Assembly (NCBI GenBank): GCA_012516665.1
Contig: JAAYWN010000095.1
Span: 1 to 42,206, forward strand
DNA from: Erysipelotrichaceae bacterium
GTDB taxonomy: Bacteria > Bacillota_I > Bacilli_A > Erysipelotrichales > Erysipelotrichaceae
Direction of reading: 5' to 3'
DNA length: 42,206 nt
In this document: in pieces, positions 5,812 through 29,942 of the stretch
Numbering within the stretch: position 1 is the first letter of the stretch
Layout of the letters: each line of letters starts with the position of its first letter
Notes under the pieces: generated by a model
Database searches by the model: none
Seen by the model: only the letters and a program-made list of their open reading frames with translations
Told to the model about the DNA's origin: nothing
Translations under genes and position numbers: made by a program

Positions 5812-5840
5812 TGAAAAACAGTGAACATTGCAGTTCACTG
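5812..5840 (-). terminator. Terminator of the aromatic operon
   Basis: On the minus strand CAGTGAAC-TGCAAT-GTTCACTG is a perfect 8-bp stem followed by TTTTTC. It overlaps the aroQ stop codon. It separates the aro operon from the NusG-II/Gx pair. Confidence 0.85.
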
Positions 5841-6281
5841 CTTCTTAAGTGCTTTTAAGATCTCATCTGCCGCATGGATATACCCCTGTACGCCTTCTCC
5901 TTTGATCTGTGCCAGACAGTACGGTGCTTCATAGGAGATATGCCGGAATTTTTCTCTTGTGCTGATATCGCTGATATGGACCTCTACGACTGGCAGCGGT
6001 GCAACTGCTTTGACGGCATCCGCCAAAGCAATACTGGTATGTGTATAGGCACCGGGATTGATCACCACACCATCATATTTTTTAAAATATGCCTCCTGGA
6101 TCCAATCAACAAGATCTCCCTCATGATTGGACTGTCGGCAATCCGCTTCTGTGCTGCGCTTGGCCAGTTCCTTCTGGATCATAGCTATCATATCTGCGTA
6201 GCTCATTGTTCCATAGATGCCCGGTTCCCGGATCCCTACCATATTCAGATTCGGGCCATTGATGATCATTATCTTTGTCAT
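5835..6281 (-). CDS. aroQ: Type II 3-dehydroquinate dehydratase
   Basis: This enzyme removes water from 3-dehydroquinate to give 3-dehydroshikimate, step three of the shikimate pathway. The 148 residues match the small dodecameric type II enzyme in length and motifs: INGPNLNMVG at the N-terminus, the lid Tyr in GIYG, QSNHEGDLVDWI, the catalytic His region NPGAYTHTSIALADA, and EVHISDISTREKFRHISY. It is the last gene of the operon. Its ATG overlaps the tyrA stop (ATGA), and a strong terminator follows immediately. The loop 'SDISTRE' differs from the common 'SNIHARE' but keeps the Arg. Confidence 0.95.
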   Translation of the reverse strand: MTKIMIINGPNLNMVGIREPGIYGTMSYADMIAMIQKELAKRSTEADCRQSNHEGDLVDWIQEAYFKKYDGVVINPGAYTHTSIALADAVKAVAPLPVVEVHISDISTREKFRHISYEAPYCLAQIKGEGVQGYIHAADEILKALKKQ

Positions 6282-7126
6282 GATTTATCAAACTTCTTTC
6301 TTCTTTCCGTCGATTGGATCATTTTTTCTTTCATGCCTTCTGTATCATTCTCCGCCAAGAGATCGCGGAAACGCAGAAGTTCCTGTGAGAATTCATTGAT
6401 CTCCCGGATCAGATTGTCCTTGTTCAGTTCAAACAATTCGGGCCACATATCTTCATTGATCTTAGCAATCCTCGTCAGATCGCGGAAACTGTCACCGGTA
6501 TAATCCACCAAGTGCGTATTATCACTGACATTCATTAAGGACACAGCAATGACATGCGTCAATTGAGAAAGGAAACCGATCATACGATCATGTTCTTCCG
6601 CCGTCAGCTGCGCGATCTTTGTAAAGCCCAGGATCTCGGCCAGCTGATGCGCTGAAGCAATTGCTTCTGGGGTATTTTCTGCGGTTGGTACAATAATGAA
6701 ATTGGCATTGGCAAAACGTGCTGCATCTGCATATTGGATCCCTTTGAACTCCCTGCCGGCCATCGGGTGACAGGCAATAAATTCCACATCTTCTCTTAAT
6801 TCCGCATTGATATCACGGATGATCTCACGCTTGATGCCAGTCACATCGCTCAGCAGTGCTCCTGTTTTAAAGTATTTCTGATTCTCTTTCACCCACTGTA
6901 CAAACACATGAGGATAGAGGCATGAAATAACGATATCTGCTTTTTGAATAAGAGAACTGTCCGTGCCGCCTTCAGCGATCCAATGATTCTTCATTGCATA
7001 CTGAATTGCTTCTTCATCAATGTCTATACCGATGCAGCAGTATCCTTTTTTTGACAGGGCCTGAACATAGCTTCCGCCCAGGACACCTAAGCCTACAATG
7101 GCAAATTTTGTATCTGGTTCAATCAT
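6278..7126 (-). CDS. tyrA: Prephenate dehydrogenase
   Basis: This enzyme oxidatively decarboxylates prephenate to 4-hydroxyphenylpyruvate with NAD(P)+ and commits the pathway to tyrosine. The Rossmann motif GLGVLGGSY is near the N-terminus, and CHPMAGRE and LSQLTHVIAVSL are the substrate and catalytic motifs, including the His in SQLTH. At 282 residues it has no C-terminal ACT domain and no fused chorismate mutase, so feedback control is more likely to lie elsewhere. It overlaps aroA by 8 bases and aroQ by 4. Confidence 0.94.
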   Translation of the reverse strand: MIEPDTKFAIVGLGVLGGSYVQALSKKGYCCIGIDIDEEAIQYAMKNHWIAEGGTDSSLIQKADIVISCLYPHVFVQWVKENQKYFKTGALLSDVTGIKREIIRDINAELREDVEFIACHPMAGREFKGIQYADAARFANANFIIVPTAENTPEAIASAHQLAEILGFTKIAQLTAEEHDRMIGFLSQLTHVIAVSLMNVSDNTHLVDYTGDSFRDLTRIAKINEDMWPELFELNKDNLIREINEFSQELLRFRDLLAENDTEGMKEKMIQSTERRKKFDKS

Positions 7127-8384
7127 GTATGATCACCCCTGTCTCTGCCAGATCTGCAAAGAAATCTGGATAGCTTTTTCTGACTGCCTCCGCTCCTTCA
7201 ATGGTCACTGGTCCATCTGCAATGGATGCCAAGACAGCCAATGCCATCACAATGCGATGATCCTGATGACCCTGTACCGTGCAGCTGCCCGTTACTTTCG
7301 TCTGGCCTAAGACGGTGACTGTGTCCGCATCAGAAGAGATATCGCAGCCAAGCTTTTTCATTTCTTCTTCCATGCATGCAATACGGTCGCTCTCTTTCAT
7401 GCGCAGTCTTGCACAATGCATGAATACCGTCCTGCCATGGCATTGACTGGCCATCGCAAATAATGCCGGTCCAAGATCTGGACAGTCGGCAAGATCGATC
7501 TTTCCGGCAGTTCTTCCTATCTGACCGGAAATACGATAGCCGCCAGGAATCTCTTTGACCGTACCGCCCATGCTTTCAGCAATCCTAATGATCACATGAT
7601 CTCCTTGTTTGGATGCATGATCCAGATTCAGCAGATCCAATGGGACATGCTGGATCAAAGCTGCTTCTGCAAAGAAAGCCAACTGTGAATCATCACCCTC
7701 GACAGTGCAGTCGATCGGCTGATATTTCTGCTTCCCAGGAATATGGAAATGCAGATCTGTCTGATCGATCCTGATGCCGGAACGCTGCAGAGCCTGGATG
7801 GTCAGACCGACATAGGAAGCAGATTCAAACGGCGGCAGGATCTCTAGATCGCTGTCGTCAGCAAGCAAAGGCAGAGCAAACAGGAGACCGCTGATGAACT
7901 GTGACGATACATCTCCGCGGATCTGATAGGTACCGCTGCTCAGCGGGCCTCTGACCATGATCCAATCGGACTTCTGTTCAAAAACGATGCCTTGTTCGCG
8001 ATATAGATCAGCATATACATTCTGGGGTCTGGCCATCAGTCTGCCATGACCTGAGAAGACCGCTGGCTGATCAAGCAATGAAAACAAAGGGATCAGGAAC
8101 CGCAGCGTACTGCCTGATTCACCGCAGTCTAAAAGCGATCCATCATAATTCATCTTTGAAATACCATGAACGATCAGATCTTTTCCCTTCTGTTCAAAGC
8201 ATGCCCCAGCATGCTGCAGAAGAGAGATCGTTGCCTGGATATCCTCGCTCTCGCTCAGAGAATGAATGACCGACATGCCATCCGCCAAAGCCGCGCAGAT
8301 CAGGGCACGATGCGACAGCGATTTGCTGGAAGGAAGGACGATCTCCGCATCATGGATCCTGCTGGGGACAATGACCTTCTTCAT
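7119..8384 (-). CDS. aroA: EPSP synthase (3-phosphoshikimate 1-carboxyvinyltransferase)
   Basis: This enzyme transfers enolpyruvyl from PEP to shikimate-3-phosphate, step six of the shikimate pathway. The 421 residues have the two-domain inverse alpha/beta barrel signature: SKSLSHRALICAALADG binding shikimate phosphate, DCGESGSTLRFL, GHGRLMARPQ with the PEP-contacting Arg, DVSSQFISGLL, and RMKESDRI near the C-terminus. The glyphosate-contact loop reads GESGSTLRF. Its ATG overlaps the stop of aroF (ATGA). Confidence 0.96.
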   Translation of the reverse strand: MKKVIVPSRIHDAEIVLPSSKSLSHRALICAALADGMSVIHSLSESEDIQATISLLQHAGACFEQKGKDLIVHGISKMNYDGSLLDCGESGSTLRFLIPLFSLLDQPAVFSGHGRLMARPQNVYADLYREQGIVFEQKSDWIMVRGPLSSGTYQIRGDVSSQFISGLLFALPLLADDSDLEILPPFESASYVGLTIQALQRSGIRIDQTDLHFHIPGKQKYQPIDCTVEGDDSQLAFFAEAALIQHVPLDLLNLDHASKQGDHVIIRIAESMGGTVKEIPGGYRISGQIGRTAGKIDLADCPDLGPALFAMASQCHGRTVFMHCARLRMKESDRIACMEEEMKKLGCDISSDADTVTVLGQTKVTGSCTVQGHQDHRIVMALAVLASIADGPVTIEGAEAVRKSYPDFFADLAETGVIIHD

Positions 8385-9400
8385 TGGATATCTCGATCAA
8401 CTGCCTGTGCTACTCTTCTTGCTTTCTTGATCAAAGAAGCAAATCTCTCCGGTTTCAGTGACTGTGCACCATCCGACCATGCCTGATCTGGACAGTCATG
8501 GACTTCAATGATCAGACCGTCGCATCCCGCCGCAATCGCTGCCAAGGATTCTGCTTCCACATATTTCCAATCGCCGGTGCTGTGCGAAGGATCGATCACG
8601 ATCGGCAGATGCGTGCGTTCCTTAATGATAGGGACGACCGCAAGATCCATCGTATTTCTGGTATATCTTTCAAAAGTACGGATCCCTCTTTCACAGAAAA
8701 TAACGTTTGGATTTCCATTGGCCAGGATATATTCTGCGCTCATGATCCAATCTTCAATAGATGCGCTCATACCTCTTTTTAAAAGGATCGGTTTCTGAAT
8801 ATGTCCTACTGCTTTCAGCAGATCAAAATTCTGCATATTGCGTGCCCCAATCTGCACCAGATCAACATTTTCAACAAATTCATCGATCTTATCTGCACTC
8901 ATTAATTCTGAAACGATCGGCATACCAGTCTCTTTTCTCGCTTCAGCCATGTCCAGAATACCTTCATATCCAAGTCCTTGGAACGAATATGGACTTGTCC
9001 TAGGCTTATACGCACCGCCGCGCAGGATCTGGCCGCCTGCCTGCTTCACTTCTTTAGCAATGCGTACGACCTGTTCCTTTCCTTCAACGGAACAAGGGCC
9101 GCCCATAATAACGATCGGCTCCTGTCCGCCGATCTTAATACCGCCGACATCAACGATCGTATCATCAGGATGGAACATTCTGTTTGCCAGTTTATACGGT
9201 GCGGATACACGCTGTACATTGGCGACCCATTCATTGGCTAAAACATCACGTTCATCAAGGGAAGCTGTATCTCCGACCAATCCCCATACATTGAAATCAT
9301 CGCCTTCGATCTCGTGGACTTCCAGTCCGCGTTTTTCAAAAGCATGATGGAGCTTATCAATTTCTTCCTGCGGTGCAGTTTTCTTTAATGTTACGATCAT
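8381..9400 (-). CDS. aroF: DAHP synthase, type I-beta with N-terminal ferredoxin-like domain
   Basis: 3-Deoxy-7-phosphoheptulonate synthase condenses PEP with erythrose-4-phosphate, the entry step of the pathway. Residues 1-70 or so (MIVTLKKTAPQEEIDKL ... EGDDFNVWGLVGD) form the ferredoxin-like regulatory domain known from the Thermotoga enzyme, where it mediates Tyr/Phe inhibition. The TIM barrel follows: GGPCSVEG with the metal Cys, RGGAYKPRTSPYSFQG, QIGARNMQNF, LLKRGM, FCERGIRT and DPSHSTG. Allosteric control here would complement the transcriptional attenuator upstream of aroB. It overlaps both neighbours by 4 bases. Confidence 0.95.
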   Translation of the reverse strand: MIVTLKKTAPQEEIDKLHHAFEKRGLEVHEIEGDDFNVWGLVGDTASLDERDVLANEWVANVQRVSAPYKLANRMFHPDDTIVDVGGIKIGGQEPIVIMGGPCSVEGKEQVVRIAKEVKQAGGQILRGGAYKPRTSPYSFQGLGYEGILDMAEARKETGMPIVSELMSADKIDEFVENVDLVQIGARNMQNFDLLKAVGHIQKPILLKRGMSASIEDWIMSAEYILANGNPNVIFCERGIRTFERYTRNTMDLAVVPIIKERTHLPIVIDPSHSTGDWKYVEAESLAAIAAGCDGLIIEVHDCPDQAWSDGAQSLKPERFASLIKKARRVAQAVDRDIQ

Positions 9401-10641
9401 ATCTCTTCCTCTCCTGCTGCTCTAAGTATCTGATGCGCAGCCTCTTCTAAGCTGGTATTGTTCTTCACAGTCACATCGCTGTATTTCTGATACAGAGGCT
9501 CTCTCTTCTGATACAGCGTCTTCATATATTCTTCATCCCCCGTCAGCGGTCTGCTGTCACTGGCAAACAAATGATCCAGATCTCTTTGGATCCAAACGAT
9601 CAAGCCATTGGCACTGAGCATTTGCATGGCTGCCTGACTGACAACAATACCGCCGCCGCAGGAGATAATGCATCCCTGTTCATTCTGCAGATCTTCTGCT
9701 GTGCTCTGTTCGATCCTGCGAAACTCAGGCTCTCCCTTTAAAGCAAAATAATCTTTGATCGGCATACCGATCTTCTGGACGATCTCATCATCCATTTCGA
9801 TCACTCTGCGATGCGTCATCTGCGACAGAATCCCTGCCAAAGTTGACTTGCCGCTTGTTGGCATGCCAATCAGCACAAGATTTCTCTTCTTCTGAAAGAG
9901 TGCATTCATGCATGCTTGGACCAGAGAAGGATCAAGGTTCTTTTCCGTAAACAGTTCATCCGCTGCAAAGGCCTGCCTGACCAGCATCTCAAACCCGCCG
10001 ATATAGGGGATCCCCATCATCTTTGCCGTGAACATCAGTTTTGTCCGCAGCGGATTGGCAACGATATCAATAACAGTTTCCAATTTTGTGAAGGCTGTCA
10101 GATCGATCGGACATTCATCCATATGCGGTGACATACCGACCGGTGTTGCATTGACAATGCATTGAAACTCTTTTTCTTTCTGATACAGCTGTTCATAATC
10201 AATGCAGCCAGGCTTCTGTCTGCGTGATACCTTCTGGACACGTGCTCCCATTTGCTGAAGTGCATATTCCGCTGCTTTGGATGCCCCGCCTGTCCCCAGC
10301 AGTGCTGTTCTCTTTCCTTTGACTTCAAAATGATCTGCCGCAAGCATCTGAGCAAAGCCAAGGGCATCTGTATTGTATCCCTTCAGTCTTCCATTCTGAT
10401 TGACAATGCAGTTGACTGCCCCAACTGCTTTCGCCGAAGGATCCAGTTCGTCCAGATATGGGATGATTTTTTCTTTATAAGGTATTGTTACATTGATGCC
10501 GTCAAAATCCCTTTTCTGCATGAAGGAAACAAATTCTTCTTCCTTCAGATCCCATTTCTGATATGCTTCATGGATCATGAAAGCATGAATCTCAGGCGAC
10601 CAGGAATGGCCTAAAGGATGGCCGATCAGTCCGAGCTTCAT
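9397..10641 (-). CDS. aroE-aroK: Shikimate dehydrogenase-shikimate kinase fusion
   Basis: One 414-residue polypeptide carries two consecutive pathway enzymes. Residues 1-250 or so are shikimate dehydrogenase: GHPLGHSWSPEIH and NVTIPYKEKI bind shikimate, with the catalytic Lys in the latter; NTDALGF follows, then the nucleotide-binding GTGGASKAAEYAL and SRRQ. Residues 255-414 or so are shikimate kinase: Walker A GMPTSGKST, the shikimate/Mg site IEMDDEI, SCGGGIVV, and the lid Arg in SRPLTGD. The ATG at 10641 follows GGAGATGAAAG and overlaps the aroC stop (ATGA). There is no internal stop or restart, so it is a true fusion. Confidence 0.95.
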   Translation of the reverse strand: MKLGLIGHPLGHSWSPEIHAFMIHEAYQKWDLKEEEFVSFMQKRDFDGINVTIPYKEKIIPYLDELDPSAKAVGAVNCIVNQNGRLKGYNTDALGFAQMLAADHFEVKGKRTALLGTGGASKAAEYALQQMGARVQKVSRRQKPGCIDYEQLYQKEKEFQCIVNATPVGMSPHMDECPIDLTAFTKLETVIDIVANPLRTKLMFTAKMMGIPYIGGFEMLVRQAFAADELFTEKNLDPSLVQACMNALFQKKRNLVLIGMPTSGKSTLAGILSQMTHRRVIEMDDEIVQKIGMPIKDYFALKGEPEFRRIEQSTAEDLQNEQGCIISCGGGIVVSQAAMQMLSANGLIVWIQRDLDHLFASDSRPLTGDEEYMKTLYQKREPLYQKYSDVTVKNNTSLEEAAHQILRAAGEEEI

Positions 10642-11741
10642 CTTTCATCTCCAAAGTACAGAGTGCCATGCCGTTCCAGTAGAAGATCTGTCAGTACAAA
10701 TGCCGTCATCGCATCGACGACGACTCTGGCCCGATGAATGACAGCCGGATCATGGCGGCCGGCAATGGTCAGTTTCTTTTCTTTCATTGCCGCAAAATCG
10801 ACCGTATCCTGCATCTGCGCAATGGATGGGGTCGGCTTGACCGCTGTGCGGAAACGGATCGGCATGCCATTGGAGATACCGCCGTTGATCCCGCCATTGT
10901 GATTTGTTTTTGTAATGATCTTTCCGTGATCAATGGCAAACGCATCGTTTGCCTGGGATCCATACATATCTGCGAAATGGAAGCCTTCACCGAATTCAAT
11001 TCCCTTTACTGCAGGGATTGAAAACATCGCATGGCTCAGCTGCGATTCGATGGAATCAAACTCCGGTTCCCCAATGCCAGCCTCGAGACCGATCACTGCG
11101 GTATCAAGAATACCGCCGATGGAATCCTGCTGTTCACGGCAGGCCATAATGGATGCGATCATTGCTTCAGACTTCTGCGGATCCAATACACCAAATTTTC
11201 TCTGATGGAGAAGTTCTATATCTCTTTTCAAATTCTCTTCATCAAAGGGAATATCTTCGATATCCTTCAGCTTTGCAATATGCGTACCGATCTCGATACC
11301 TTTCGTATTGAGCATATGCATGCATATAGCTCCTGCGGCAACTAACGGAGCTGTCAGCCGGCCGGAAAAATGTCCGCCGCCGCTGGCATCTTCATAGCCC
11401 TGATATTTGATATGCCCCGTATAATCTGCATGTCCAGGACGGGCTGTATCCTTCAGCTGCTCATAGTCCTTTGCCTGTACATTGCCATTGCGGATGAGAA
11501 AGGCGATCGGTGTACCTTCACTGTATCCATCCTTAATACCAGACAGGAATTCCGGCAGATCATCTTCTCTTCTTGCCGTTGAGATCGAACCGGCAGCTCT
11601 TCTTTGATCCATCATATCTGCGATCAATTCATAATCGATCATGACACCGCTTGGCATCCCATCAATAACAGCACCGATCGCTGTTCCATGAGATTCACCA
11701 AACAAGGTCAGTGAAATATGCCTGCCAAATGTATTTTTCAT
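10638..11741 (-). CDS. aroC: Chorismate synthase
   Basis: This enzyme makes chorismate from EPSP using reduced FMN. Motifs: GRHISLTLFGESHG at the N-terminus, QRRAAGSISTARREDD, SGGGHFSGRLTAPLVAAGAI, the flavin-site GGINGGISNGMPI, and the C-terminal GRHDPAVIHRARVVVDAM. The track starts 12 codons earlier, but ATG 11741 forms an ATGA overlap with the aroB stop, has GAGAGG upstream, and begins the conserved sequence MKNTFGRH. From this start it is 367 residues, the usual size. Confidence 0.96.
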   Translation of the reverse strand: MKNTFGRHISLTLFGESHGTAIGAVIDGMPSGVMIDYELIADMMDQRRAAGSISTARREDDLPEFLSGIKDGYSEGTPIAFLIRNGNVQAKDYEQLKDTARPGHADYTGHIKYQGYEDASGGGHFSGRLTAPLVAAGAICMHMLNTKGIEIGTHIAKLKDIEDIPFDEENLKRDIELLHQRKFGVLDPQKSEAMIASIMACREQQDSIGGILDTAVIGLEAGIGEPEFDSIESQLSHAMFSIPAVKGIEFGEGFHFADMYGSQANDAFAIDHGKIITKTNHNGGINGGISNGMPIRFRTAVKPTPSIAQMQDTVDFAAMKEKKLTIAGRHDPAVIHRARVVVDAMTAFVLTDLLLERHGTLYFGDER

Positions 11742-12742
11742 ATTCCCAGCCTCTCTTTCACCTGTGCTAAGCTCCAATCAGCTAAATATCCCCGCCCGAT
11801 CGTGTCGACCTGGACCATAGAGATGTGATCATGATCTGCCTTTTTATCCAGCAGCATCAGCTGGTAGATCTTTTTTGGGTCGCATTGGCATGCCGTCGGC
11901 AGCTGCAGTTTCTGAAGCACCTTCCGCAGACGTTCCTTGAGCTCTGGATCGTTCAGTACGGTCATCATGCCCAGGCCGACACATTCACCATGCAGATAGC
12001 CATCCATGCCGAAGTAAGCTTCATAGGCATGGCCGAACGTATGACCGAAATTCAGCAGTTTTCTTTCTCCGTTCTCTTTTTCGTCTTTTTCTACGATTTC
12101 TTTCTTGATCTTCAGACAGCGGGCAATGATCTCTTCTAAGTGATCTTCCGGCTTTTCTTTTTCAAATACAGCAAACAGACCTGCATCGCAGATCAAGCCT
12201 TCTTTAACTGCTTCCGCAAGACCATTGTGCAGCTGTCTTGGCGGCAGCGTGGCAAGCGTATCAGGATCTGCTAAGACCAGATCCGGCGGCCAAAAAGCGC
12301 CGACCGAATTCTTTACTCCATTGAAATCAATCGCTGTCTTGCCGCCGATCGAAGAATCGATCTGCGACAGAGAGGTTGTTGGAATATTGATATAGCGAAT
12401 GCCCCTCATATAGATAGCAGAGGCAAATCCTGCCATATCTCCGACGACGCCGCCGCCGATTGCAATCAAAGTATCCTGCCGGCTGAGATGCGCTTTCTGC
12501 ATAGCTTTCAGGATCTCCTGCAGAGTCGCAAAGTTCTTGGATGCTTCCCCATTAGGGAAGATATAGACCGCCGCCTGCGGGAACTGTGCCTGCAGCTGAC
12601 GGACCCACTTTTCCGGTACGCCGTCATCAGAAACAATAAAAGCCTGTCCTGACAGATGGATCAGCTGCGATGCTTTTGCCAATGCACCTCTTTCCAGCAC
12701 AACAGCATATTCTGTTTCTTTTGTATGTACAACTATTTTCAT
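11738..12742 (-). CDS. aroB: 3-Dehydroquinate synthase
   Basis: This NAD- and metal-dependent enzyme converts DAHP to 3-dehydroquinate, step two. Motifs: IGGGVVGDMAGF binding NAD, GIRYINIPTTSLSQIDSSIGGKTAIDF, NGLAEAVKEGLI with a metal Glu, and LNFGHTFGHAYE with metal His residues. At 334 residues it is slightly shorter than many homologues. It is the first structural gene of the operon. A near-perfect AGGAGG stands 5 bases before the ATG, directly after the leader terminator, so its expression depends on read-through of that terminator. Confidence 0.96.
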   Translation of the reverse strand: MKIVVHTKETEYAVVLERGALAKASQLIHLSGQAFIVSDDGVPEKWVRQLQAQFPQAAVYIFPNGEASKNFATLQEILKAMQKAHLSRQDTLIAIGGGVVGDMAGFASAIYMRGIRYINIPTTSLSQIDSSIGGKTAIDFNGVKNSVGAFWPPDLVLADPDTLATLPPRQLHNGLAEAVKEGLICDAGLFAVFEKEKPEDHLEEIIARCLKIKKEIVEKDEKENGERKLLNFGHTFGHAYEAYFGMDGYLHGECVGLGMMTVLNDPELKERLRKVLQKLQLPTACQCDPKKIYQLMLLDKKADHDHISMVQVDTIGRGYLADWSLAQVKERLGI

Positions 12743-12751
12743 AAGCCTCCT

Positions 12752-12781
12752 AAAATAAAAACCATACGGCTATCCGTATGG
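12752..12781 (-). terminator. Leader (attenuator) terminator before aroB
   Basis: On the minus strand CCATACGG-ATAG-CCGTATGG is a perfect 8-bp stem, extendable with G-U and A-T pairs, followed by TTTTTATTTT. It ends only 9 bases before the aroB start codon and its T-tract runs straight into AGGAGG. A strong intrinsic terminator between a promoter and the first gene of its operon is the hallmark of attenuation. Confidence 0.85.
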
Positions 12782-12799
12782 CTTGTTTGTTCTCCATTC

Positions 12800-12863
12800 A
12801 GATAACTACTTTGCAAATACGAAACGGCAGTTATCTATAGCTGCCTTGTTATCTAAAGTAGTA
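12800..12863 (-). promoter_or_regulatory. Competing RNA segments of the aro leader
   Basis: On the minus strand, segment 1 (ACTACTTTAGATAAC) overlaps the Tyr/Phe codons and stop of the leader ORF. A hairpin GGCAG/CTGCC follows. Segment 3 is GCAAAGTAGTTATCT. Segment 3 can pair with segment 1 (ACTACTTT:AAAGTAGT) or with the repeat AGATAACT inside the hairpin (AGATAACT:AGTTATCT), and these pairings exclude one another. CGTAT just before segment 3 is complementary to ATACG in the 5' arm of the terminator and is the best, though short, antiterminator candidate. Pairings were found by eye, not by energy calculation. Confidence 0.6.
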
Positions 12864-12887
12864 AAAGAAGAACATCTGTGTTTTCAT
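12849..12887 (-). CDS. Leader peptide MKTQMFFFYYFR of the aromatic operon
   Basis: A 12-codon ORF too short for the ORF track. It starts 12-14 bases after the predicted transcription start and stops at TAA. Six consecutive codons are aromatic (Phe-Phe-Phe-Tyr-Tyr-Phe), half of the peptide. It lies between a consensus promoter and an intrinsic terminator upstream of genes that make the precursors of Phe and Tyr. This matches the logic of pheA/pheST/trp-type leader peptides, where ribosome stalling at scarce charged tRNA chooses between RNA folds. No Trp codon is present, so the expected signals are Phe and Tyr. The ribosome binding site is weak (GGGT about 9 bases before the ATG). Function as a regulatory peptide is an inference, but the codon content is hard to explain by chance. 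Confidence 0.8.
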   Translation of the reverse strand: MKTQMFFFYYFR

Positions 12888-12905
12888 CTGTTTTTACCCG
12901 TTTTT

Positions 12906-12934
12906 ATTGTATCTCAGCCTTGAAAGATTGGCAA
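12906..12934 (-). promoter_or_regulatory. Promoter of the aromatic operon
   Basis: On the minus strand TTGCCA (12929-12934), exactly 17 bases, then TACAAT (12906-12911). It begins 20 bases after the pheA stop codon. The predicted start near 12900 places the leader ORF at the very 5' end of the transcript. Confidence 0.8.
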
Positions 12935-12954: not shown

Positions 12955-13779
12955 TCAATGAACTGCTGATCGGTAATTTCCAAAGACTTTCATTTCCAGA
13001 CAGCGCGGTCCCAATTCCTTCAGCATTTCCTTAATATCTTTCTGCGCTAGATTTCCTGTAATATCAATATAGAACAGATACTCAAAGACTCTTCCTTGGA
13101 TCGGTCGGCTTTCCAGCTTCAGAATGTTGATGCCTCTTTTGGAAATGATGCCCAATGTATTATACAGAGAGCCCGGCGTATGGCGCAGTACCAGCATCAT
13201 CGAGATCTTATCTGCATCTTTCACTTCATAGTCCTCATGGCTGATCACCAGGAATCTTGTCATATTTGTGGCTGAATCCTGGACGGATTCCGCTAAGGAC
13301 GCCAGCTGATAATACTGTGCTGCGCGCCAGGATCCTAACGCAGCCTTGGATGGATCATTCTGCTGCTTGATATATTCAGCTGACTTGGCCGTATCCTGAT
13401 ATGGAACCGTCTGGATCTGCGGATGTGCTTCAAAGAATGCAGTGCATTGCGATAATGCTTCGGGATGAGAATAGACCTGACGTATCTGATCAATGTCAGT
13501 CACCGGAAGTCCGATCAGATCTTCATGGATCGGCACATTGATCTCACCGATGGCATGAATATCATACTTCTGGAACAGATCATAAGTGCGTGCAATGATG
13601 CCGGTCGTTGTATTCTCTACCGGAAGCACCGCATCGTTCAGAATCCCATTTTCTGTATCCTTCAGGATCGCGGTAAAATTCGGATAGCCGATTGGTTCGA
13701 TCTCTTCGTCCTTATAGTACTCCAATGCTGCAATCTCGCTGAATGTTCCGTGATTTCCCTGGTATCCGACTTTTATCAT
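12955..13779 (-). CDS. pheA: Prephenate dehydratase
   Basis: This enzyme converts prephenate to phenylpyruvate, the committed step to phenylalanine. The 274 residues comprise a catalytic domain and a C-terminal ACT domain: YQGNHGTFSE at the N-terminus, PVENTTTGII, SHPEALSQC, DTAKSAEYI, NMTRFLVI with the conserved Thr-Arg-Phe, then the ACT motifs GSLYNTLGIISKRGINI and LESRP, which bind Phe for feedback inhibition. There is no chorismate mutase domain. GAGGAC precedes the ATG. No terminator follows, so pheA transcripts may read into the aro leader and meet the same attenuator. Confidence 0.95.
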   Translation of the reverse strand: MIKVGYQGNHGTFSEIAALEYYKDEEIEPIGYPNFTAILKDTENGILNDAVLPVENTTTGIIARTYDLFQKYDIHAIGEINVPIHEDLIGLPVTDIDQIRQVYSHPEALSQCTAFFEAHPQIQTVPYQDTAKSAEYIKQQNDPSKAALGSWRAAQYYQLASLAESVQDSATNMTRFLVISHEDYEVKDADKISMMLVLRHTPGSLYNTLGIISKRGINILKLESRPIQGRVFEYLFYIDITGNLAQKDIKEMLKELGPRCLEMKVFGNYRSAVH

Positions 13780-29684: not shown

Positions 29685-29942
29685 CAAAAAGGCGCCCCAT
29701 ATCGGGACGTCCTGTTATGACGTGATTCCACCTGATTTCACTGAAGCCTCACGGTCTTCAGTCTCATTGAGTACCAACATACTCTTGTGCTGTAACGGGC
29801 ACCGCCGTTTCACCTTACTGTGTTCAGATGAACTGCTCCGGGATGTGTTTTCACTGTACCTTCTGCCCTTCCTTCTCATCAAACGGAAGTTCTCTTTGTC
29901 AGCACGATCCAGCTACTTTTTCCCATCAGCGCTTTATTGATG
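29685..29942 (-). ncRNA. T-box leader of the his operon (specifier CAC, His)
   Basis: The untranslated leader holds the T-box sequence AGGTGGAATCACGTC (29719-29733), a variant of the conserved AGGGTGGNACCGCG. It is followed by the terminator GGACGTCCCG-ATAT-GGGGCGCC with five T (29685-29712). The ACGTC of the T-box can pair with GACGT of the terminator arm, forming the antiterminator. At the 5' end a GGGA/TCCC stem encloses an internal loop with AGTA on one side (29914-29917) and AAACACA on the other. CAC (29845-29847) is followed by a purine, as specifier codons usually are, and fits tRNA-His. Four more hairpins lie between. The 29659-29998 gap contains nothing else but the promoter. Confidence 0.85.

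Follow-up and report, generated by a model that had tools for sequence, protein, structure and literature searches.

In the his operon leader of enteric bacteria, stalling of the ribosome permits an upstream hairpin, leaving a later strand available as the antiterminator; if translation is completed, pairing between the middle strands allows the terminator to form. T-boxes, TRAP or enzyme feedback are the mechanisms usually invoked for the control of aromatic pathways in Bacillota. Leader-peptide attenuators in this phylum have been documented for hisS paralogs in bacilli (PMC2965389), predicted for His leaders, including those of six Erysipelotrichales species (PMC9413887), and supported genetically for the Leu leader of the Staphylococcus aureus ilv-leu operon (PMC5794164). 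For aromatic amino acids, the available text of a 2021 paper describes the uORFC-13-1 motif, a Phe-codon uORF with a terminator before aroF, from Acholeplasma and environmental sequences only (PMC8632094). The available text of a 2019 survey of five other genomes proposes a regulatory role for Phe/Tyr short-ORF candidates before shikimate genes (PMC6429828, Fig. 6b).

The DNA analysed here, called the window, is a stretch of 42,206 nucleotides from an Erysipelotrichaceae bacterium. Its pheA-aroB gap carries on the minus strand (12934-12746), in this order, a promoter, the leader ORF MKTQMFFFYYFR*, a hairpin, a terminator and the aroB ribosome-binding site. An earlier note on this DNA had reported the promoter, a 12-codon ORF with six aromatic codons, the terminator and the AGGAGG of aroB, and all were found where it had placed them. 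We consider it very probable, from the features listed below and their conservation, that the gap holds a ribosome-mediated transcription attenuator that senses the charging of tRNA-Phe and tRNA-Tyr and controls the aroB-aroC-aroEK-aroF(DAHPS)-aroA-tyrA-aroQ operon.

12955 to 13779, minus strand: pheA, prephenate dehydratase with ACT (Pfam PF00800), upstream of the putative attenuator
12906 to 12934, minus strand: predicted sigma-70-type promoter, TTGCCA-17-TACAAT, consensus score 10/12
12849 to 12887, minus strand: leader ORF, MKTQMFFFYYFR plus TAA, 12 codons, of which codons -7 to -2 before the stop read FFFYYF
12848 to 12854, minus strand: segment 0, AGATAAC, the last sense codon and stop, able to pair with segment 3
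12841 to 12845, minus strand: segment 1, GGCAG, the 5' arm of hairpin 1:2 (from alignment A1 and helix pairing counts)
12826 to 12836, minus strand: segment 2, CTGCC, the 3' arm of hairpin 1:2, with AGATAACT pairing to segment 3
12826 to 12845, minus strand: the whole of hairpin 1:2
12799 to 12806, minus strand: segment 3, GTTATCTG, the putative switching strand, with segment 0, 2 or 4 as partner
12769 to 12776, minus strand: segment 4, CGGATAGC, the top of the terminator 5' arm, the loop and the first 3'-arm base, the putative antiterminator partner of segment 3
12759 to 12784, minus strand: intrinsic terminator hairpin, 11 pairs, T-rich tail from 12761 on
12746 to 12751, minus strand: aroB ribosome-binding site, AGGAGG
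11738 to 12742, minus strand: aroB, 3-dehydroquinate synthase, first gene of the operon, ATG at 12742 (Pfam PF01761/PF24621)
5835 to 11777, minus strand: rest of the operon, aroC, an aroE-aroK fusion, DAHP synthase, aroA, tyrA and type II dehydroquinase (Pfam)

The promoter match (10/12) is weak when taken alone, as about 0.8 such sites are expected by chance, and most relatives have a promoter-like site at this position 5' of their leader ORF. By chance, six consecutive aromatic codons would occur 0.02 times in DNA of the size of the window, and the only other such run there (27914, plus strand) lies antisense to Lys/Glu codons of hisD. Shuffled sequences give 0.1 terminators like the 11-pair hairpin at 12784-12759, and the leader RNA has a much more stable fold than its shuffles (z = -6.1). 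The ORFs that follow aroB are nearly contiguous, almost without gaps, through the type II dehydroquinase, and the products of the operon serve, by Pfam assignment, the synthesis of Phe/Tyr precursors. Shikimate dehydrogenase and shikimate kinase are encoded by one fused ORF (9397-10641, minus strand).

Relatives were collected through aroB orthologs; DNA similarity alone gave few. The genus, taken in the GTDB sense, was covered by 70 genomes, including that of the cultured Lactimicrobium massiliense Marseille-P4301 (Erysipelotrichaceae, Erysipelotrichales), and aroB was found in 42 of them. A covariance model built from 30 elements detected the putative attenuator in 31 of these 42, immediately 5' of aroB in all but one, which lies at a contig edge (G074). 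Among the 11 aroB-bearing genomes without the element, pheA abuts aroB in 8, leaving no gap for a leader. The retention of a Phe/Tyr-rich leader together with the switch in 31 genomes of the genus supports the ribosome-mediated attenuation that the earlier note had proposed, and the comparison of related pheA-aroB gaps that it had called for yielded both conserved Phe/Tyr codons and covarying stems.

The 30 genus elements of alignment A1 all have Phe/Tyr-rich leaders, the sequences of which otherwise differ (FFFYYFR, YFYYYFR, YYYYYVG, FYFYFR and others). From position -7 to position -2 relative to the stop codon, aromatic codons occur in 25, 29, 25, 29, 21 and 26 of the 30 leaders, falling to 3 at position -8 and to none at position -1. 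In most leaders, all six codons preceding the last sense codon encode Phe or Tyr. Trp codons were absent from every curated leader. A search for trpB in the genome of the window found none; one relative (G014) has trpB, yet its leader lacks Trp. Among the non-aromatic residues, no pattern is common to the peptides, Phe and Tyr interchange freely and the N-termini differ. Most leaders have Arg (AGA) as their last sense codon. In four loci (L027, L143, L147 and L151) the frame has slipped and no longer encodes this Arg, but GATAA or AGATA is retained, which indicates that these bases serve the RNA and not the peptide. The comparison turned up no relative with the full element but without its aromatic codons, although two weak matches before aroC, described below, may be decayed remnants.

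Those bases belong to segment 0, one of three conserved partners of segment 3 (consensus GGCATTATCTG) in alignment A1, the others being segments 2 and 4. Across the 30 genomes, 95% of alignment cells are paired in helix 0:3, which joins segment 3 to the leader stop region AGATAA, and 95% in helix 2:3, where it meets AGATAATTGCC in the 3' arm of hairpin 1:2. Helix 3:4, with CGGATAATGCC (the upper 5' arm of the terminator, its loop and the first 3'-arm bases), has 11 pairs and 96% of cells paired. The corresponding values for the same genomes are 85% for helix 1:2, where a gap misplaced by one base in three rows (L010, L011 and L013) lowers the count, and 98.8% for the terminator helix, with compensatory changes in 5 of its 9 pairs. 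When the partner was shifted by 1-3 columns as a control, pairing dropped to 21-44% of cells. Compensatory changes occur in helices 0:3, 1:2, 2:3 and 3:4 as well as in the terminator. The last base of segment 3, for example, is a G in 18 rows and an A in the other 12, with matching partners (C or U) in segments 2 and 4 in most rows, and on the AroB tree this covariation corresponds to about 5 changes (bootstrap range 4-6). The mutually exclusive pairings that the earlier note had suspected were thus borne out, with a better antiterminator than the CGTAT/ATACG that it had given as the only complementarity. In the window, GTTATCTG (12806-12799) pairs with CGGATAGC (12776-12769) over 8 continuous pairs, including two G-U, and it was overlooked because the version of this species is reduced from the 11 pairs (GGCATTATCTG/CGGATAATGCC) found in most relatives. 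The spacing between ORF and switch is also conserved: in 29 of the 30 elements, the first conserved pair of hairpin 1:2 follows the stop codon at a distance of 2-4 nt.

From these parts, with their conservation, compensatory changes and spacing, we infer how stalling, read-through and any dominance of one amino acid over the other might come about. With plentiful Phe and Tyr, the ribosome would reach the stop codon and cover segment 1, whereupon segments 2 and 3 would pair and the terminator would form. With either amino acid scarce, it would stall on Phe/Tyr codons near the stop, covering segment 0 and leaving segment 1 free. Hairpin 1:2 would then form and release segment 3 to pair with the loop and upper 5' arm of the terminator as it emerges, and transcription would continue into aroB. 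In the absence of a ribosome, segment 0 would pair with segment 3 and the terminator would form, making termination the default. The aromatic pathway is probably switched on only under Phe/Tyr shortage.

Folding with the ribosome-covered bases removed, as the earlier note had advised, shifted the structures in the right direction, with an outcome that depends on kinetics. The footprint of a ribosome at the stop codon was assumed to reach 12 nt beyond the first base of that codon, and in the model such a ribosome hides the 5' arm of hairpin 1:2; ribosomes placed on the aromatic codons hide progressively less. While segment 4 had not yet been made, 2:3 formed in 30/30 elements with a ribosome at the stop and 0:3 in 27/30 in free RNA, and 2:3 still prevailed over 1:2 in 28/30 with a ribosome on the last aromatic codon. 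When the transcript ended at the antiterminator partner and the edge of the ribosome lay at the stop codon, 1:2 and 3:4 formed together in 30/30; in a partial transcript with the ribosome at the stop, 3:4 was still allowed in 18/30. The complete leader folded into the terminator in 30/30 with a ribosome at the stop and in 29/30 without one. Since the finished terminator also beats 3:4 at equilibrium in most stalled states (22-30 of 30), read-through would have to be decided kinetically, and we infer this step from the order of synthesis, as in other attenuators. A stall on the first one or two aromatic codons leaves segment 0 free for segment 3 in the model, and stalls at these positions may not produce read-through.

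The start of the leader lies close to the predicted start of the transcript. The distance from the predicted -10 box to the leader ATG is 6-9 nt in 10 of the 30 genus elements and at most 23 nt in 26, after the leader starts of L013, L033 and L046 had been set by hand and the frame of L025 likewise corrected; for L012, L013, L043 and L047, with distances above 30 nt, the promoter finder is unreliable. The leader ORF of the window has a predicted 5'UTR of only about 11 nt. Shine-Dalgarno pairing is weak at the leaders of this genus compared with aroB; in many other genera of the family a GAGG-type site was seen by eye 5' of the leader. Several leaders of the genus may therefore be translated from leaderless or nearly leaderless mRNAs, a prediction based on the promoter consensus only.

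With a second covariance model, the device was also detected in other genera of the family, where it precedes aroB, a DAHP synthase gene or a gene for a TrpX-like transporter. At confident scores, this model gave no device elsewhere in the order and almost none in the samples from elsewhere in the class or phylum. Outside the genus, the gene behind the device is aroB in most cases, DAHP synthase in one (L144) and a gene for a TrpX-like substrate-binding protein in eleven loci (L157, L158, L172, L173, L175, L177, L178, L179, L182, L184 and L185). Several of the latter are weak model matches, accepted since leader, hairpins, terminator and gene all fit, and the two TrpX-like proteins tested match the TrpX model below its equivalog cut-off. 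Leaders at the transporter loci are Phe-only (NISFFFFFR, KSFFFFFS) or Phe/Tyr (YYFYFYFR), and here too the antiterminator strand has the terminator loop and 5' arm as its partner. Such leaders suggest that these TrpX-like ABC transporters carry Phe/Tyr. Of 25 loci outside the genus, 21 showed more complementarity between spacer and terminator than shuffles did (p < 0.05). One locus from a different family of the class (L187) has MLTYQTVSYTYYYFR before DAHP synthase.

Three weak model matches (L156, L180 and L186) lacked the combination of an aromatic leader and a downstream enzyme or transporter gene and were not accepted, and neither were the short, weak matches in G600, G653, G748 and G757 (L167 inspected). 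A possible attenuator with the ORF MPKEVKWQFYFLGL, of uncertain membership, lies before the gene for an amino-acid ABC transporter substrate-binding protein (L174/L176). Two further weak matches lie 5' of aroC (L181 in G055, L183 in G008), with the terminator kept and the leader ORF apparently gone; aroB was not found in either genome, and these loci may be decayed attenuators. Whether all of this amounts to one undescribed family of aromatic attenuators, a regulon device used throughout the Erysipelotrichaceae at the shikimate operon, DAHP synthase alone and the TrpX-like ABC transporter, with genus leaders on near-leaderless transcripts where initiation at the 5' end feeds the sensor, is in our judgement evenly balanced.

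Other explanations of the conserved element deserve consideration. The hairpins could form a plain terminator or constitutive attenuator that just lowers transcription into aroB, without any response to amino acids. Nearly all modelled conditions do end with the terminator as the stable state, but such a reading leaves unexplained the conserved Phe/Tyr codons, the three conserved partners of segment 3 and the recurrence of the device before DAHP synthase and transporter genes, and we regard this reading as very improbable. Control could also be independent of translation, with a T-box, a riboswitch or an RNA-binding protein selecting between terminator and antiterminator and the ORF being incidental. 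T-boxes dominate amino-acid control in Bacillota, and the genome of the window has one. However, this is the only match of the T-box model RF00230 in the window (29700-29938), with none in the related loci, and no Rfam family, T-box included, reached its threshold in the element or ten related loci. The leader is also too short to hold a T-box stem I, and in 30 genomes the Phe/Tyr codons keep an exact position before the stop amid varying sequence, which makes it most unlikely that the ORF is incidental.

The fixed position of these codons is equally relevant to an arrest peptide. TnaC senses tryptophan in the ribosome tunnel, and a short aromatic peptide ending at a fixed distance from the switch might likewise sense free Phe, Tyr or another ligand there instead of tRNA charging. 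Against this, the peptides share no residue pattern beyond their aromatic content, Phe and Tyr being interchangeable and the N-termini variable, and the sole recurring non-aromatic residue, the final Arg, overlies the RNA-pairing AGATA, which outlasts it in the four slipped loci. We therefore give arrest by the peptide itself very little weight compared with stalling for want of charged tRNA-Phe or tRNA-Tyr.

Attenuation by tRNA charging would provide a concrete mechanism by which a large group of Bacillota from gut and rumen could regulate both the synthesis and the uptake of aromatic amino acids. Leaders of this type also permit substrate prediction: Phe/Tyr is a more likely substrate than Trp for a TrpX-like transporter that follows a five-Phe leader. 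A T-box leader lies on the minus strand directly before the his operon (hisZ onward) of the window. The same genome would thus control his through a T-box and aro through a leader-peptide attenuator, allowing a side-by-side comparison of the two strategies.

Among known systems, the proposed switching logic is the same as in the enteric his operon leader (segments A-F; Rfam RF00514). Unlike that leader, with its His codons and his genes, the present element has a stop-codon segment that pairs directly with the switching strand and an antiterminator that targets the upper part and loop of the terminator. The enteric pheA and pheST leaders (Rfam RF01859, Phe_leader) resemble it in combining a Phe-rich leader peptide with an attenuator, whereas here Phe and Tyr are mixed and a shikimate operon would be controlled. 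The RF01859 model scored 22.2 bits against the window (E 0.14), below its 55-bit cut-off, and had no match at E<=1 in six loci of the element. The attenuators of PMC9413887 are of the same leader-peptide type and occur in the same order, but they are specific for His and precede his genes, with no aromatic example reported there. The ilv-leu leader of S. aureus (PMC5794164) is likewise a case of leader-peptide attenuation in Bacillota and differs in its Leu specificity, operon and structure. The uORFC-13-1 motif (PMC8632094), compared by its description in the available text, shares the Phe uORF, the terminator and the DAHP synthase gene; it differs in its host group and in not lying at aroB operons, and that text gives no alternative-pairing model. 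The locus before DAHP synthase in the other family (L187) is possibly of the uORFC-13-1 type. The candidates of PMC6429828, whose available description gives neither host nor structure, are, as here, short ORFs with Phe and Tyr codons at shikimate genes. The novelty claimed in the earlier note holds in part: our literature search found no earlier description of the present Phe/Tyr aro attenuator, but its kind is already in print (PMC9413887, PMC5794164, PMC6429828 and PMC8632094, the last two by their available text). The element likely belongs to this known kind, the ribosome-mediated transcription attenuator, and would be distinguished within it by his-like wiring, a specificity for both Phe and Tyr, and shikimate and transporter targets.
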